From: Gemmatimonadota bacterium
GTDB taxonomy: Bacteria; GCA-2686955
Assembly: GCA_002686955.1 (NCBI GenBank)
Contig: NYZA01000021.1
Location: 1 to 22,639, forward strand
DNA length: 22,639 nt
Reading direction: 5' to 3'
Numbering within the stretch: the first letter of the stretch is position 1; each line of letters starts with the position of its first letter. This document shows positions 2,066 to 19,793 of this stretch, piece after piece. Below the pieces are notes generated by a model. That model saw only the letters and a program-made list of their open reading frames with translations, was not told the DNA's origin and searched no databases. A program made the translations under genes and the position numbers.

Positions 2066-4228
2066 CTATCGTCGCCGAATCTCCCAAACCCGATGCACCT
2101 TCGGCGTGCGCGCGAAATCGTGCGGAATCGTCTTCGCCGTGATATCGCGCGCATCGAATCCCTCGAGCGCCTCCGGATCGAGCTCGAATCCCCTTGCGTG
2201 CGTCGAGAAAAGCAGAACACCGCCATCAGCGAGCAACGATGCCGCATCTCGAATCAGCTCTGGATGATCCCGCGCGATTTCGAGGGGCGCCCGCATCCTC
2301 TTCGAGTTCGAGAAGGTCGGAGGATCGAGGAAGATCAGATCAAAGCGACGCTTGCCCGTGCTTCTTTCCTCTCTCAACCACTGCACGCAGTCGGCCTGGA
2401 TCAGCTCATGTCGCTTCCCCCCGATCCCGTTGCGTTCGAAATTCCGTCGCGTCCACGTAATGTAGGCGCGAGACATGTCGACCGTGGTGCTGTGGTTGGC
2501 GCCGGCCTTCGCGGCGCGGACGGTAGCCGTGCCGGTGTAGCCGAAGAGGTTCAGGAAGCGTTTGCCACCCGCCAGCTCCGCGATCCTCTCCCTCGTCGGG
2601 CGGTGGTCCAAGAAGAGTCCGGAATCGATATGATCGGTGAAGTTAACGAGGAAGGTACAGGGACCTTCCCGTACTTCGTGCAGCTCTCCATGGGTGCCGG
2701 TGCGTTCGTACTGCGCCGTGCCGCGCTGGCGCCGACGCATCTTGAAAAACAGATTGCCGCTCGGAATCTCCAGCACCATGGGGATCACCGAGGCGGCATC
2801 GCGCCGCCGAGCTTCGGCCTTCGCGGGATCGACCGACGCGGGCGGCGCATATTCCTGCACATGCGCCCAGGTCGCGCTGCCGTGGTAGAGATCGATGGCG
2901 AAGGAGTAGTCCGGCAGATCGGCGTCGTAGATCCGATAGGCGAAAACACCATTCTTTCGCGCCCATTTCCTGAGCAGCCGCAGCTTCTTGCGCAAACGGT
3001 TGGCGAAAATCTCGGCCCCTTCCGACCAGTTCGCCTCGATCGCCTCGGAATCGGCGGCCCGCTCTCCCGCCCGCTCGCGACTTGCGATGCGCGAAACGCT
3101 CAAGCGACATTTCAAGGCTCCGTTGTAGAGCGTGAAGGTCGCGCTGGGTCGCAGGCCCGTTCGGCGCTCCTCGCTCGCCGTGAGCACCGCTACGGTCCAA
3201 CCTGGAAAATGCGCCTTGGCGGTCTTGCCCAAGCGCGAATAGAGCAAGGTGAGCTCCGGTGCCGCGCCGATCCGGTGACCGTAGGGTGGATTCGCCGCGA
3301 AGAGCCCCCGTCCCCCCTCGCGCCTCGGCCGGCTGTCCCCCAGCTCCCGCCTTTCGATATGCACGCGACCGTGCAGACCCGCGCGCTCCACATGAAGATG
3401 CGCCGCGGCAACCGCCCGTGCATCGCTGTCGAACCCGCTAATCGGCGGCAGATTCGCCAACCCCGCCACGCAGAGCTCCCGCGCCTCTTCCAGCAGCTCC
3501 TTCCACGCAGCCGCGCCGTGACCGCGCCAACGCTCGAAGCCGAATCGGGACCGGCCGAGGCCGGGCGCCACGTTCCCGGCCATCAGCGCCGCCTCGATCG
3601 GCAAAGTGCCGGTTCCACACATCGGATCGACCAGCTCCCCCCCCTCTTGCGCGATCTCGGGCCAACCGGCCCGCATCAGAACCGCCGCCGCCAGATTCTC
3701 CTTGAGGGTCGCCTGCCCCCCTTCCTGCCGGTATCCCCGCATATGCAGACTGCCTCCCGAGAGGTCGAGACTGATCGTGGCTTGATCGCCACGGATGTGG
3801 AGGTTGATCCGCAGATCGGGATCAGCGGTGTCCACCGATGGTCGCACCCCCTGGGCATCGCGAAAACGATCGACGATGGCATCTTTGGTCTTGAGAGCCG
3901 CATAGTGGGAGTGCGTGACCGCCGAGCGCGATGTCACGCAATCCACTGCCAAGGTGGAACGGGCGCTGAGGTGATCTTCCCAACGAAGGGCGCGAACCCC
4001 GTGATAGAGCGCATCGGAGGTCGGCGCCGGGAACCCGGCCAGAGGTAGCAACACCCTATTGGCGATTCGCGACCAGAGGCAGACACCGTAGCCCACCTTC
4101 AACGACCCTTCGAAGGCGACTCCGGCCCGCGTGACCCGCGGCGTGCGTCCGCCGAGGCGACGGATCTCGCCCTCCAAGAGCCCCTCCATCCCCTTGGGCG
4201 ATGTTGCGAAGAAACGATGTTGGCTCAC
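2066..4228 (-). CDS. rlmL: Bifunctional 23S rRNA methyltransferase RlmKL (m2G2445 and m7G2069)
   Basis: 720 residues, close to the usual length of the fused enzyme. By family knowledge the N-terminal half makes m2G2445 and the C-terminal half m7G2069 in 23S rRNA during 50S assembly. An N-terminal THUMP-type RNA-binding region (about residues 15-150) is followed by the first Rossmann methyltransferase, with the SAM motif DPMCGTGTLP near residue 201 and the catalytic NPPYG near 313. The RlmK half has LNLFGYTGTATV near 559 and DPPTFSNS near 635. The start is the GTG at 4228-4226, which overlaps the proA stop as GTGA and is followed directly by the conserved FFATSPKGMEGLL. An ATG at 4312 would extend 28 residues into proA and is rejected. 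The stop is TAG. Translational coupling to proA is likely. Confidence 0.93.
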   Translation of the reverse strand: MSQHRFFATSPKGMEGLLEGEIRRLGGRTPRVTRAGVAFEGSLKVGYGVCLWSRIANRVLLPLAGFPAPTSDALYHGVRALRWEDHLSARSTLAVDCVTSRSAVTHSHYAALKTKDAIVDRFRDAQGVRPSVDTADPDLRINLHIRGDQATISLDLSGGSLHMRGYRQEGGQATLKENLAAAVLMRAGWPEIAQEGGELVDPMCGTGTLPIEAALMAGNVAPGLGRSRFGFERWRGHGAAAWKELLEEARELCVAGLANLPPISGFDSDARAVAAAHLHVERAGLHGRVHIERRELGDSRPRREGGRGLFAANPPYGHRIGAAPELTLLYSRLGKTAKAHFPGWTVAVLTASEERRTGLRPSATFTLYNGALKCRLSVSRIASRERAGERAADSEAIEANWSEGAEIFANRLRKKLRLLRKWARKNGVFAYRIYDADLPDYSFAIDLYHGSATWAHVQEYAPPASVDPAKAEARRRDAASVIPMVLEIPSGNLFFKMRRRQRGTAQYERTGTHGELHEVREGPCTFLVNFTDHIDSGLFLDHRPTRERIAELAGGKRFLNLFGYTGTATVRAAKAGANHSTTVDMSRAYITWTRRNFERNGIGGKRHELIQADCVQWLREERSTGKRRFDLIFLDPPTFSNSKRMRAPLEIARDHPELIRDAASLLADGGVLLFSTHARGFELDPEALEGFDARDITAKTIPHDFARTPKVHRVWEIRRR

Positions 4229-7840: not shown

Positions 7841-8202
7841 CTACGCCCCGATCTCCCGGCGGAAAAGAGCGAGAAAAAGTATCTGGAAGAGGGGCGGGGG
7901 AGGACCGAGCTTTGACTCGCCGGTCGCCGCCCGAAGAGATGTGAGGCGATACGCGCTTTCGGGACTCCGCCCGCGCATGCGACACAATCTCCAGCGGCCG
8001 TCACCCACGAAGATACTCGGTGCCGACACTTCTGAACGCGTTCGCCGAGGCGGGGGTTTGGTTGCGAGTGGTCGCGTGTTGCGCGTGTCGAAGTCGCGAA
8101 TCGCGGAGGCAGGCCGGACAATACTGCGGCGTCCCTCTCCCTATCTCTTAGCTTTTCGATGCCGGGCCCTGTTCCCGAACCCCAAAACGCGACGATTGAG
8201 GA
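7841..8202. other. Intergenic region between divergent transcripts, no gene seen
   Basis: Translations in all frames are arginine/proline/serine-rich shadow sequence without domain motifs. The region separates the minus-strand elbB operon from the plus-strand gene pair and presumably holds the elbB promoter, which I could not place. Confidence 0.5.
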
Positions 8203-9190: not shown

Positions 9191-11169
9191 GCACGTTCGT
9201 CTTGCTCGCGCTCTCGCTGTCGCTCGGCGCGCCGCCCGGCTCTTGCCGCGAGTTCCATCTATCCAATGCCGCCAAGTCTTGGGAGGTGGCCTCCGACGGC
9301 CTCGATGTCGTGGTGTTCGGCCCGGGCGCTTGCGAACGATTGGAACTGGATGAATCTGGTCGGCCACAATCGATCCGTCGCATTCCTCTCGGCGGGTGGC
9401 CGCTCGCGATCCATCGGGGTTGGCTCTACCATGGGAACTATAAAAGGACCATCGACATCTTCGACTGGACCTGTGAAGACGCCGGGCTGCCTGTCGAGGC
9501 GGGGAGGATCGAGCTGGAGACCGCGAAGTCGGTCGTTGCGGCGGAGGCACTCGATATTGTGAACGAGACGCTTTTCGTCGGAACCGGTACCGTATACGAG
9601 AGCGAGAAGAAGTACATTGGCCGCTCATTGCGCAGCTACTCTATCGCGAATCCGGTCGCGCCGGTCCCGCTCGACACGCTGGCTCTCGCTAGTACTCCTC
9701 TCGACCTCGTCTTCTCCGGTGATCTGTGCATCGTGCCGATCTATGCGGGGGCAGTCTCCATCATCGACATCTCGCACCCGGACTCAATGGTCGAGCTGAG
9801 CAACATAGAGATCGGAGTCGAACCCAAGGGCGCCGCGGTCGCGAGCGGCGCCCTGATCGTCGCGGCGGAAGACGACTCGATGCGGCTCTACGACATCGGC
9901 GATCCACGGCTGCCCCGTTTGCTCGGTACGGAGTACCGACCAACCCACGCCATCGAGACGATCGATGGCGGCTTCTGCACGGTCGACAGCGCCCTGACCA
10001 CCTGGAGCATCGAGCCGGGCCGGCCGCCGGAGCCTGCGGGCTTCGTCGATCTGGGCATCGACATGTTTTCGTGGAGATACAGTTACGACGGCGTTCGAGA
10101 CGCCCGCTACATCCCCGATGCCGGTGCCGTAGTGATCGCGGCCTTCGAGAGCGGAACGATCATCGCCGACGTGCGCGACATCGAGAATCCACGCGTGATC
10201 TGGCGCGAGCCGATCGTTCCCTTCCTGATCGCGACCGGCGCGCAGATCGATGGCGATCGGGCGTACGTATCGAGCACCCCCTCGGTATCCGAATGGGCCT
10301 ACGGCGGGGTGAGTGTCTTCGAGATTCCGCAAGAAGGTCAGCCGCGTCTTCTGGGTTGGTCCGATACCCGCCGAAGCACGACGCAGTGCGCGATCGCGGT
10401 GAAAGACCGAGGCGTCGCCTACACTCTGGATTGTGGTGGGCATCGCATGATCCACATCTGGGACGTGTCGGATCCCACCACGGTGGCCTACATCGACTCG
10501 ATCGACTCGGCGCCGATCGCCGAACATCATCTCATGGTGAGTGGAGACCGCCTCTACTCCGCCGGCGCGGGTGTGGCCCTTCATGACATCTCGGTCCCCC
10601 ACCAACCCGAGCTGCTGGGCCACCTTCAGCTCCCTGATATGATCGGGCGCTTCGCCGGGCTCACCACGGTCGAAGGTCGCGATTACGTATGGATCGCCGA
10701 CTTTGGCGTGGCGATCGTCGACGCCACCAATCCGGACAGCCTCGCGCTGACCCACGACGGGCCGATCGGTGAATACGGCTCTTTTCGTGGCGCCGCCAGC
10801 GAAGGGAACAGGTTGTACCTGGTCAGCGGCGAGACCTTCATCGCCGTCGACATCTCTGTTCCCGGCGACCCGAAGATCCTGGCGGAGCATGCCATCCTGG
10901 GGCCGGAGCCCGGCCAACGGTACACCATGGACGTTGTGGAAGGGCGCGCCTATCTGGTGACGAATTGGGGTTCGGGAACCGGCTCCGGCCACCTGTACGT
11001 CCTCGATTTGACGCCCAAGGGCGATGTTACGCGAATCCAGAGCTGGGGGCCGATCGAGAGGATCGAAACGATCCGCAAGGTCCCCGGCCGGATCTTCGTC
11101 GCCGGCTCGCTCGGGGTGGGTTGGATGCCGCTCGACAACACCGATCTCTTGCTGGGGGTGATTGAGTAG
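9187..11169 (+). CDS. Exported LVIVP-repeat beta-propeller protein (660 aa)
   Basis: The ATG at 9187 overlaps the upstream stop (ATGA), with GAGG eight bases before it. The first 19 residues, VLLALSLSLGAPPGS in core, form a short hydrophobic signal without a positive n-region, possibly ending at a cysteine. The rest is a chain of repeats ending in the LVIVP pattern: VSIIDISHPDSMVEL, MRLYDIGDPRLPRLLG, VSVFEIPQEGQPRLLG, IHIWDVSDPTTVAYI, VALHDISVPHQPELLG, VAIVDATNPDSLALT and FIAVDISVPGDPKIL. At least seven blades are visible, enough for one or two propellers. LVIVP proteins are typically surface or periplasmic proteins of unknown function; ligand binding is inferred, not shown. It ends in TAG. 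A nonsense-mutated copy of its 5' end follows at 11273. Confidence 0.8.
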   Translation: MSTFVLLALSLSLGAPPGSCREFHLSNAAKSWEVASDGLDVVVFGPGACERLELDESGRPQSIRRIPLGGWPLAIHRGWLYHGNYKRTIDIFDWTCEDAGLPVEAGRIELETAKSVVAAEALDIVNETLFVGTGTVYESEKKYIGRSLRSYSIANPVAPVPLDTLALASTPLDLVFSGDLCIVPIYAGAVSIIDISHPDSMVELSNIEIGVEPKGAAVASGALIVAAEDDSMRLYDIGDPRLPRLLGTEYRPTHAIETIDGGFCTVDSALTTWSIEPGRPPEPAGFVDLGIDMFSWRYSYDGVRDARYIPDAGAVVIAAFESGTIIADVRDIENPRVIWREPIVPFLIATGAQIDGDRAYVSSTPSVSEWAYGGVSVFEIPQEGQPRLLGWSDTRRSTTQCAIAVKDRGVAYTLDCGGHRMIHIWDVSDPTTVAYIDSIDSAPIAEHHLMVSGDRLYSAGAGVALHDISVPHQPELLGHLQLPDMIGRFAGLTTVEGRDYVWIADFGVAIVDATNPDSLALTHDGPIGEYGSFRGAASEGNRLYLVSGETFIAVDISVPGDPKILAEHAILGPEPGQRYTMDVVEGRAYLVTNWGSGTGSGHLYVLDLTPKGDVTRIQSWGPIERIETIRKVPGRIFVAGSLGVGWMPLDNTDLLLGVIE

Positions 11170-16024: not shown

Positions 16025-17854
16025 CTACCAATCGTGCGGCGCCTCGTTCGGCGCGGGGAACTCATCGAGGGTCGTGAGCAACCAGCGGTCGATCGCGATG
16101 TTGTTCGGCGCCTGAGCCAGTGAGAACTCGTGTACACCCTTGGTGAGCACGGCGGTCGCCACGCGGCGCCAGATCCAGGGACCGGGGGATGAGGCGGTCG
16201 CCGACTTGCCGCGGGGCGCGGGGCGGCCGTCGATCGAGATCGAGAGAGCGCCGGCCCGCGTGAATTCGCCGCGGATGCGGGCCCAGATCCGATACTCGCG
16301 CCATTCCGGGATCTCGACGCGGTAGAAGAGCGCCTGGCCGACCGCATCGGGAGCCGCGCCGCCGGCGCTCTTGGCGGCCTGGCGACTGAGATAGGAATGG
16401 CCCCAGGCGGTGGTGTCGTCGGCCACTTGCCAGACACCGAGCGCGTTGGCCGACTCGGCCTCGCGGTAGATGCACTTTTCCGGATTGCCGGTGTGCCAAT
16501 CGTCGTACATGAAGCGCGACGCCTGAATTCGCGTGTGATCCCACACGCCTGGAGTGTCGTAGACATGGATCTTCGAGTCGTAGCCCTGGAAAACGATGTC
16601 GGTATCGCCGTCGTGATCCAGATCGGTGAGTATGCCGGTGCCGAGATCGTTCGAATCGGTCCAGATCGGCCATCCGTTCACGACGTTGCCGTTCAGCTCG
16701 AAAGCCTAATCGTAGGGGTTCGAGCCGCCGGCGAAGGCCTCGACGCCTGGGTCGCCGTCGATGTCGCCGACGATTAGCTGTGATTGCATGCTCCATGGCC
16801 CAAGCCAGGGCTAGTGGGAATCGAGCGTGCCGTCGGCGTGATAGAGGAGCACGTAGGAGGGGTTGGTGTTGCACCAGAGTGCGCTCACTTCGTTGGGTGC
16901 ACTTCGCAGGGCAACCGGCATCGCATCGACGTACCCGAAGTTGGCGACCGGTGGCCATCCGTTGACAGCACCGCCTTGGTTGTCGAAAACGTGAATGTGC
17001 CCGGCCCAATCGCAAGCAACGATTTCCGGCTCCGGTCCGCCGTCGAGGTTGGCGAGGGAGACAGGGGTGCCGACGACGCCAGCGTCCAGGGTTGCGAGGC
17101 GCGGCTCGGCGGCAAAGGGGGTGCCGTCGTGGTTGAATGCGAAAATGGATGCTTCGCCTTGCCCGGCGCCTACATACCCGGCGGTCACGATCTCCATATC
17201 ACCGTCGAGATCGAGGTCGGCGATCGCGAATCCCGATTCCACGGTTTCGTCAATTTCGACGGGCCAACCGGGGAGTGGGGCGCCCTGATCATCGAGTAGG
17301 GTCAGACCGCTTGCGTTGTATCCCCATATCCAGGCGGTCGTGTAGAGAGTTTCGAGACGGCCATCTCCGTCGAAATCGAAAATGGTGATCGCCGCGGTGA
17401 CGAGAACGGGTTGCCCGAAGGTCGCGGGCCAACCAGGCAGCTCCCGTCCGTCTATATCGACTGCATGTATTCTCCCAAAGGCCCCTTGTTCGTACTCGGC
17501 GAAGACCGCTTCGATCTGGCCGTCGTTGTTCAGATCTCCGCCGCCAACGTGTCCTTGCACATCTTTTGGGAAGGTCCAGGGAGCGGATGCCACGTGCGAT
17601 CCGTCGTGGTTGTAGACCATGACTTCTCCCTGTGGAGACGCGCCGCCGGCAACGATCTCCTCGAATCCGTCACCGTCCAGATCAGCCACCAATGGCGAAG
17701 CACCTCCCAAGACCCAGTTGACCGGCCAGCCGGCATTCTCGGGGTAGGCGAACGCCCGGCCCGAGAGCCAGGAACACAGAGCAATGCCAGCAAATGCTAA
17801 GCCCGTCGTTACCGTCGAGCGATACCGACGAGCTCTGTCCTTAGACAGCTTCAT
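16025..17854 (-). pseudogene. Exported FG-GAP protein with sugar-binding-like C-terminus, two in-frame TAGs
   Basis: The ATG at 17854 overlaps the stop of the beta-helix gene (ATGA). A signal peptide ends at about SGRAFA before YPENAGWP. Seven FG-GAP/integrin-type calcium-loop repeats follow, among them LVADLDGDGFEEIVAG, IFDFDGDGRLETLYT, IADLDLDGDMEIVTAG, VGDIDGDPGVEAFAGG and LTDLDHDGDTDIVFQG. The last 170 residues look like a jelly-roll carbohydrate-binding module (IYREAESANALGVW, then EYRIWARIRG, then RWLLTTL). Codons 348 (TAG at 16811-16813) and 383 (TAG at 16706-16708) interrupt one otherwise continuous frame of 609 codons, and repeat homology continues across both. Without readthrough the product stops after five repeats and lacks the binding module. 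Confidence 0.85.
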
Positions 17855-19421
17855 TGACCTAGATTACAGTTGCCGACAGCCTCCACATACTCAAGGCAGA
17901 GATCGACCCCTGTTGGATCCCATATGTTGTGCTTTCCACCGTAGGCACCGATATCACACGTTGTCAAACCGACCCCGGGCGGGCTGCTGCTGTCCGCATA
18001 CGCTGTCCCGGGCGGCCCCTGATCGATCGCTTTCGAGTCGTTCGCCGCCGCGGCGTACCCACACACCGGATTCGAGATAGTCTTCAGCATATAGCTATAT
18101 TTGGCGACACCGCTGCCGTCTGGAATCACACCTTGATAACGCGGATTCGATCCGCCGGGCGTGTCGTCGTTGATGTCGTTCGCGCCCACCAATATCGAAT
18201 CAGCGTAATCGAGATCGTTCGCCCAGAGAAGCTCGTAGTCGGTTGAGAGCAAGGGCTGGGTTCCGGGGTTGGGGCCTACGACTTCAAACGCGGGCTGCTC
18301 CGCGGTCTGGGTTCCCGAGCGGGTGATCGTGTTCGCATAGAGCGTCGCGATACAAAGCTCGTGCACTCTCAGTCCGTTGCCATCGGTGATGTCGATCACG
18401 TTGTTGTGAGCCACGACTTCCGTGGGAACCACTGTTCCGTTGACGGCCGGTGCGAAGCACTCCGTCGAGTCGACCGCACACATTGGGTCGCTCGGCGTCG
18501 GTGGCTCGCCCAAGTAGAGAGCATGGGATACGAGGGCTCCTTCCTCTTGGTTCCTGGAGAATATGTTGTTTCTCACGATGCCCTTGGAGCCGTGCACGAA
18601 GTGAAGGCCCAGCATTCCGCTACAGTAGAAGAGATTGTGCTCGAATAGCGACTCGAGGCTGTCGGGGACCGAGGAAGGAGCGGTGGTGTCGATCCGCCCG
18701 GCCCCCAAGTGCCAGCCTTCGCTGCCCGCCTGCAACCGATTATTCCGCGCGGTCACCGCGAAATGGTAGGTCGTAACCGCATCGATGTTTCCGACGACTT
18801 CGTTGTTCAGGAAATGCCCCCACTTTGGGCTCTGCCCGAATGCTTCATCCGCGTATCTGCCCTTATTTCCGATGACGACGGTGCCGTCACAGTGGTGCTC
18901 CGACTCGAAATAGTTGTCTTCGATGAATAGGCCGGTGGCGTAGCTCTGGGCCGGATCGTCAGCGGCGTTGAAAACCCCAAGAGCGGCCGCGTCATCCTCC
19001 CCAATAACCTCGAATGCCTTGAGTGTGACCCTCATATCATGGCAACGCCGCCCCGAGGGGTCGAGTCGGTCGTTGTGGATCTCGAAGGCGCCGGCCCACT
19101 CGCGGCACAGTATGTAGCCAGTGTCGGTATAGGACCACCGAATCTGCGGCGGCTCCGCCATCAGATCATCCGGCATGAACGAAATGTAGAACTGGTTCGT
19201 ATCCCCAGCGGCGGGATAGACCTTGACCTGCTCTTCGTACGTCCCCGACACAACCACAATCGTATCTTGATGCACCGCGGCATCCACGGCCGATTGAATC
19301 GTTTGATAGCAGGGTAGCGTGCAGTTCGGATCGACGAGCTTCGTTCCCGCGAAGGCCCTCGTCGCGCTACACACAAAAAGCGCTACGGCGAGAGGCGAGA
19401 GGCGAGAGGCGCGTGTACCAT
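17851..19421 (-). pseudogene. Exported right-handed beta-helix protein, start out of frame (possible phase-off state)
   Basis: The 507-codon body from 19374 down has pectate-lyase-like features. A YQTIQSAVDAA motif and DTIVVVSGTYEEQVKV begin the helix. Asparagine-rich turns follow, among them FIEDNYFESEHH, VTARNNRLQAG, GIVRNNIFSRN, VAHNNVIDITDGNG and ATLYANTITRSG. No GTG/TTG/ATG in its own frame gives a complete signal peptide; GTG 19374 starts too late. A well-placed ATG at 19421 (AAGGA eight bases before) is one base out of frame because of a 7-bp tandem repeat inside the signal-peptide coding region. With one or four repeat copies it would encode a good signal peptide ending TRAFA. It overlaps the FG-GAP gene by four bases. 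It is either switched off or carries an assembly-collapsed repeat. Confidence 0.85.
19389..19409 (-). repeat. 7-bp tandem repeat, three copies, in signal-peptide coding region
   Basis: On the plus strand CGAGAGG occurs three times exactly at 19389-19395, 19396-19402 and 19403-19409; the coding-strand unit is CCTCTCG. It lies ten bases inside the ATG at 19421. Since seven is not divisible by three, each gain or loss of a unit shifts the reading frame of the beta-helix gene. Copy numbers 1, 4 and 7 are in frame. Confidence 0.95.
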
Positions 19422-19470
19422 GATCTCCGTCCTTTCGGGAGTGCCCTCGGGCCGTTCGTGATTCGAGCGA

Positions 19471-19517: not shown

Positions 19518-19793
19518 CGGCCACTTCGCCCCTTCGTGCGATCTTCGCGCCCCGCGGGTGCGCCGGCGGTCGATTTGGGCGCATCTTGACGATATATGAT
19601 CAGGCGTCGTGTAAAGCGGCTGGATCAACGACTCTGGAGGGGGCAGGGCCGCCGAATCTTGCTGCGTCAACACACGAGTTCGAGGCTTGCGGGGCGACGG
19701 GGCGGGCCTGGCGATGTTCTACGGTGACCAGTGTCTCAATACTCGGTCCACAGTTTCTCCGACTTCCCGGGGCTACTCAAGTGCCCGCGCAGC
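19518..19793. other. Intergenic region, no gene seen
   Basis: The translations show no recognisable domain. A plus-strand TTGACG near 19587 has no gene behind it. This is the downstream end of the AbiE-like pair and the upstream region of the beta-helix operon, both on the minus strand. Confidence 0.4.

Follow-up and report, generated by a model that had tools for sequence, protein, structure and literature searches.

The window analyzed here is the whole stretch of 22,639 nucleotides spanning positions 1 to 22,639 of contig NYZA01000021.1, in the genome assembly GCA_002686955.1 of a Gemmatimonadota bacterium. On its minus strand, GAAAGGACGGAGATC, an ATG (19421), a perfect array of period 7, the hydrophobic core of a signal peptide and the body of a beta-helix protein follow one another, and the start of a gene coding for an FG-GAP protein overlaps the end of the beta-helix gene. 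The features of the locus are as follows:

19425..19436, minus strand: Shine-Dalgarno-like stretch, GAAAGGACGGAG, 5' of the ATG (from the sequence)
19419..19421, minus strand: ATG start codon; in the assembly its frame is not that of the body
19387..19411, minus strand: perfect 7-bp tandem array, CCTCTCG on the minus strand, 25 bp, 3.57 copies; proposed slippage site
19383..19385, minus strand: TAG closing the frame of the ATG, directly 3' of the array
19348..19386, minus strand: core of the signal peptide with its cleavage region, read in the frame of the body, VALFVCSATRAFA (by eye and by a hydrophobicity rule)
17851..19374, minus strand: beta-helix body, 507 open codons; mechanical ORF from GTG 19374
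16811..17854, minus strand: FG-GAP protein gene, its ATG overlapping the beta-helix stop (ATGA, 17854-17851), ending at TAG 16813
16025..16810, minus strand: FG-GAP frame beyond TAG 16813, interrupted again by a TAG at 16708; 3' part that is lost or in decay

The CCTCTCG array is the top-scoring tandem repeat of the window (TRF score 50). A previous, sequence-only reading of this DNA had described three exact copies of CGAGAGG (the same unit on the plus strand) downstream of the ATG, and these are indeed present within a perfect array that is slightly longer. As that reading had also claimed, the frame opened by ATG 19421 closes early, reading MVHAPLASRLSP and meeting TAG 19385 after 12 residues, and frame arithmetic agrees with its proposal that one or four copies would join the ATG to the body, since the addition of one unit or the loss of two places both in a single frame. 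The signal peptide of the gene, AVALFVCSATRAFA, with a putative cleavage site near 19348/19347 (again by eye and by the hydrophobicity rule), is the one described earlier, and the units, read by eye, contain no stop in any frame. Between the upstream stop and the core, the only start-like codons in the body frame are an ATA at -55 and GTG 19374. Because the latter sits within the core, a protein begun there would be without most of its signal peptide, and the gene has no usable in-frame start 5' of the core.

The beta-helix product matches the Pfam Beta_helix family below the cut-off, and its paralogue C55 does so above it. The structural model of the protein is of low confidence (mean pLDDT 52), and the folds nearest to it are pectin methylesterases and lyases at a TM of about 0.3; the PL6 lyases and RbmB are found, together with the pectin methylesterases, among these low-TM neighbors. 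On this modeling, a polysaccharide-active or surface beta-helix protein is plausible. A scan of named genomes with the single protein gave no match, and no relative of it was found in the viral contigs and plasmids searched; a profile scan retrieved the related MAG JALXCG01 ('Gemmatimonadetes bacterium', same phylum) and otherwise weak, mostly short matches. The overlap between the FG-GAP start and the beta-helix stop, which the sequence-only reading had pointed out, is a genuine ATGA, and this arrangement makes it probable that the FG-GAP gene is translationally coupled to the beta-helix gene. Apart from the in-frame TAGs at 16813 and 16708, the FG-GAP frame is continuous to 16027, and the presence of these two codons suggests that the partner is truncated or decaying. 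The use of TAG as a sense codon was considered and discarded, the tally of in-frame candidates (TAG 32, TGA 30 and TAA 2) giving no sign of recoding. Elsewhere in the window, a stretch of 35-75 bp at 19675-19749 (minus strand) matches eight other places in the genome with 74-91% identity, and may be a dispersed element or a structured repeat near gene ends.

The genome is a draft MAG of 270 contigs, 84.5% complete, in which a free scan for arrays covered 1.858 Mb in 140 stretches (43% of the genome) and pattern searches covered the other ~57%. Perfect arrays of at least three copies and at least 20 bp numbered seven in the real 1.858 Mb and none in six order-3 Markov simulations of 1.858 Mb each, an occurrence beyond chance, in line with a simple-sequence contingency locus. 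Three of the seven have a 6-bp unit, one of them being an ordinary coding run of Glu-Pro, and the remaining four, with non-triplet units, are the array described above, those of C62 and C137, and one at a contig end (C100). The arrays of the window, C62 and C137 all lie within ~60 bases before a signal-peptide-like core; this zone, the limits of which depend on crude gene finding and on the hydrophobicity rule, comprises 1.8% of the sampled bases, so that random placement would put all three in it with a p near 6e-6. Indeed, every non-triplet array found off contig ends in this genome precedes a signal-peptide core. Two-copy repeats near starts (C36, C65 and C73) are in frame and their frequency is explicable by chance.

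Together with a gene from another genus of the same family, the arrays that recur at signal peptides outside the window are these:

C62, array at 2561-2632: beta-helix paralogue of the window protein (40% identity), 13-bp unit in 5.54 copies directly after ATGCGTGTA
C256, array at about 11070-11106: GTG start, CCGCTCT in 5.3 copies, TAA; body frame GSAAFFGGVAMFLVTGLPLRADG
C255, array at about 7849-7887: ATGACG, TCTCAGC in about 6 copies, TAA soon after; body frame ATCVILLLFGTARAG
C137, array at 1927-1950: ATGACG, TCTCAGC in 3.43 copies, TAG; body frame TLAAVGILLLLRSALAA
G001:C523 (another genus, same family): ATGAG, CTACTCG in about 3 copies; body frame LLVGALALVSPDPARA; beta-helix relative

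The 13-bp array of C62 occupies the same site as the 7-bp array of the window gene, and the 7-bp arrays of C256, C137 and C255 sit between the start codon and the signal-peptide core of genes for exported proteins; those of C256 and C255 were found through a sequence motif and not through their position. A non-triplet array at or in the start of the coding region is hence seen in the window gene and in five others. The five array genes of the genome itself comprise two of the beta-helix family (window and C62), two of what we term the 'NLLENPGFE' family (C256 and C255, the products of which share 32% identity) and C137, whose product has only an N-terminal stretch in common with the 'NLLENPGFE' proteins, for which no Pfam match was obtained. 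Taken at face value, this distribution argues that at least five genes for exported proteins carry, within the stretch encoding the export signal, short repeats that are probably on/off switches of the sort seen in pathogenic bacteria. Two further motif matches, G001:C166 and C69, were inspected and are not switches of the signal-peptide array kind.

Homopolymers were considered as possible switches as well, but those of at least 8 bases show a weak excess near starts (22 of 121, against 11% of bases). Among relatives of the array genes, C55 carries a C7 tract downstream of its start and G001:C485 a C8 tract, both genes being in frame, while a relative of the C256 protein in C270 (about 2690-2800, minus strand) has a G9 tract in its signal peptide and an ATG one base out of frame. 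These three tracts are only suggestive as switches and, since homopolymers of such length are common in the genome, they were not counted as such. In C149 (near 1500) and C93 (near 1480), homologs of the array genes meet unrelated upstream sequence precisely at C7 or G9 tracts, and these junctions may be assembly chimeras or real breakpoints.

In none of the six array genes does the start codon share the frame of the body, so that all would be OFF as assembled. The offset between body and start is 2 in the window gene and C256, and 1 in C62, C137, C255 and C523; as both wrong frames are represented, each gene needs a change in length, and frame arithmetic indicates that other copy numbers would bring start and body into one open frame. 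If one third of such genes are expected to be ON, six OFF out of six has a probability of ~9% and, given also that the phase-variable neuO gene is mostly OFF, the outcome does not appear odd. In the five genes of this genome, the body frame runs past the core without a stop for 503, 485, at least 478, 484 and 186 codons. Genes that have long been out of frame should collect stops, and the open bodies, which constitute our main argument, thus suggest recent or recurrent expression.

Given these observations, it seems likely that the array of the window is a simple-sequence contingency locus, that is, that the beta-helix gene undergoes translational phase variation by change of copy number. In such a scheme, slipped-strand mispairing at replication would alter the number of 7-bp units and, 7 not being a multiple of 3, every such change would either bring the ATG into register with the signal peptide and the body or take it out of register. 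Copy number would consequently vary between cells; ON cells would export the beta-helix protein, and the FG-GAP partner would follow the same switch through a polar effect mediated by the ATGA overlap. An array of three to four copies of 7 bp is short, and slippage may be slow. The genome would then harbor a small set of switches, all of them situated towards the N-terminus of a signal peptide, a region that could accommodate an array devoid of stop codons in any frame. The contingency-locus interpretation had been put forward by the sequence-only reading, and the rest of the genome supports it as regards structure and recurrence; the switching itself we infer. More tentatively, and with rather less confidence than for the window array itself, we propose a set of switches, invariably located in the signal-peptide n-region, in a lineage that does not belong to the known phase-varying pathogens. 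Units as different as heptamers and a 13-mer would have arisen independently at this one site in unrelated families of exported proteins, the reason being that non-triplet units rich in pyrimidines encode Leu, Ser, Ala, Arg and Pro whichever frame is read, which would make for an acceptable n-region as long as the unit is in frame.

Several other explanations of these data have to be weighed. The one that survives best, even if we regard it as unlikely, is decay: the n-region of signal peptides tolerates repeats, chance expansion of an array leads to loss of frame and the genes are recent pseudogenes, as might be argued from the out-of-frame state of all six of them. The two TAGs of the FG-GAP partner imply that the window locus may be decaying and, together with a TAG in a paralogue fragment (C35) and a further disruption downstream in G001:C523, the genome of which has a coverage of only about 2.4-fold, they point to decay in part of the family. 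This process does not readily account, however, for bodies that are open for ~480-500 or more codons past the core in C21 (the window contig), C62, C256 and C255, nor for the open frames of more than 1000 codons in C255 and C256, and five independent recent losses, each through an array at one place and with the body otherwise intact, would be a strange coincidence. Assembly or sequencing error, whereby the true number of units is in frame and the assembler dropped or added some, is quite improbable, because arrays of 24-40 bp are shorter than the usual span of short reads and seldom collapse, and because sequencing error does not generate perfect multi-copy arrays, with five different units, at a single functional site. 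It derives some support from the draft nature of the MAG, from the low coverage of the related-genus genome and from the apparent joining of C149 and C93 to unrelated genes at homopolymer tracts, which suggests errors near repeats.

Constant expression in spite of the frame, whether by programmed ribosomal frameshifting within the array or by ribosomes re-initiating downstream of the short ORF, is highly improbable. It would be conceivable in C62, in which a GTG four bases 3' of the ATG is in frame and would give the whole signal peptide, but the body frames of C256, C137 and C523 lack any start-like codon 5' of the core and that of the window gene has only one, inside the core. Furthermore, the units share no slippery heptamer and, with +1 and +2 offsets both occurring, no single ribosomal frameshift would serve all six genes; a programmed frameshift, for which one conserved direction and a slippery site are expected, was discarded on these grounds. 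The differing units, the two wrong frames and the open bodies fit reversible frame switching and speak against both programmed frameshifting and old decay. Finally, that GCTCTCN-type repeats simply land anywhere, those in signal peptides being by-products without a switching role, is barely credible, for although three-copy GCTCTCN arrays turn up in 4 genomes of a diverse set of 290 as well as in 52 viral-contig stretches, and heptamers are the most abundant long simple-repeat class in most genomes surveyed (PMC4679880), only two of 46 distinct viral-contig arrays (L236 and L247) were recognized within signal peptides, both in frame, and the non-triplet arrays found off contig ends in the present genome all precede signal-peptide cores.

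Heptamer arrays are therefore widespread, but it is no general property of such arrays to be confined to signal peptides, as they are in this genome. The two viral-contig cases just mentioned, L236 (1958-3706, plus strand) and L247 (6556-7083, plus strand), are metagenomic viral or proviral contigs with 4-copy heptamers in in-frame signal peptides (MKRLLLRRFALSSQLSALSFLLVALSALSSQ and MKKLFLLSALCSLLAPIAFA, respectively). Contigs C98, C123 and C195 of a genome from another family (G231) contain three arrays of GCTCTCA, one of which has at least 7 copies.

What is known of repeat-driven phase variation comes mostly from pathogens adapted to a host. For a lineage such as this one, no description of a heptamer combined with a signal-peptide position in several paralogues was found in the literature searched, mostly outside subscription journals; the mechanism is known from opa and neuO, and it is the lineage and the use across families that appear to be new. 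If the switching postulated here is real, its occurrence at several genes of an uncultured lineage would imply that exported proteins are subject to bet-hedging in the environment as well, perhaps against phage or for polysaccharide use. It should also be borne in mind that, in array genes like these, automatic annotation cuts the signal peptide short or drops the gene altogether.

Among known systems, the TAACTGA and GGGAATC heptamers of Beggiatoaceae, Xanthomonas and Nostoc are likewise 7-bp arrays in environmental or plant-associated bacteria, but they are chiefly intergenic, with one unit family per genome, and unlinked to surface genes (PMC4679880, PMC4692102), while the arrays reported here lie inside the coding regions of exported proteins and involve several units. 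Hypervariable repeats have been reported in uncultured bacteria, an example being those in a gene of a Gracilibacterium, although their 9-mer unit, as a multiple of three, alters the protein and not the frame (PMC6851277), in contrast to the non-triplet units seen here. A heptanucleotide array in the 5' coding region, with the unit AAGACTC, is present in neuO of the E. coli K1 prophage CUS-3, which is OFF in 65.6% of 64 genomes (PMC13001214). The window array resembles it in having a 7-bp unit near the start codon, in the full-length translation predicted at one copy number in three and in being OFF as assembled, neuO being mostly OFF in sequenced genomes. On the other hand, neuO is a single gene for a cytoplasmic O-acetyltransferase without a signal peptide, and its 3 to 53 copies compare with about 3 to 6 here. 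In the hmw genes of Haemophilus influenzae the heptanucleotide array is part of the promoter and sets how strongly the genes are expressed, whereas the array here belongs to a coding region. The likeness is that a 7-bp array controls a surface protein in hmw (PMC8262952), as is proposed here.

The opa genes of Neisseria, which carry CTCTT coding repeats in the leader-peptide region (PMC3960869), provide a parallel for both the position and the recurrence of the arrays. As in opa, a non-triplet array with a pyrimidine-rich unit lacking stop codons is located in the signal-peptide coding region of several paralogous genes for putative surface proteins, here in the pairs window/C62 and C256/C255, and copy number sets the frame. 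The differences are a unit of 7 or 13 bp instead of 5 bp, a different unit in most genes where the opa genes share a single one, unrelated proteins and lineage, and the fact that variation has been demonstrated in opa, while the array genes described here are known from assembled sequence. Homology to opa was discarded, given that the units differ from CTCTT and that Pfam returns beta-helix or nothing; the locus would work like opa, but it is not opa.
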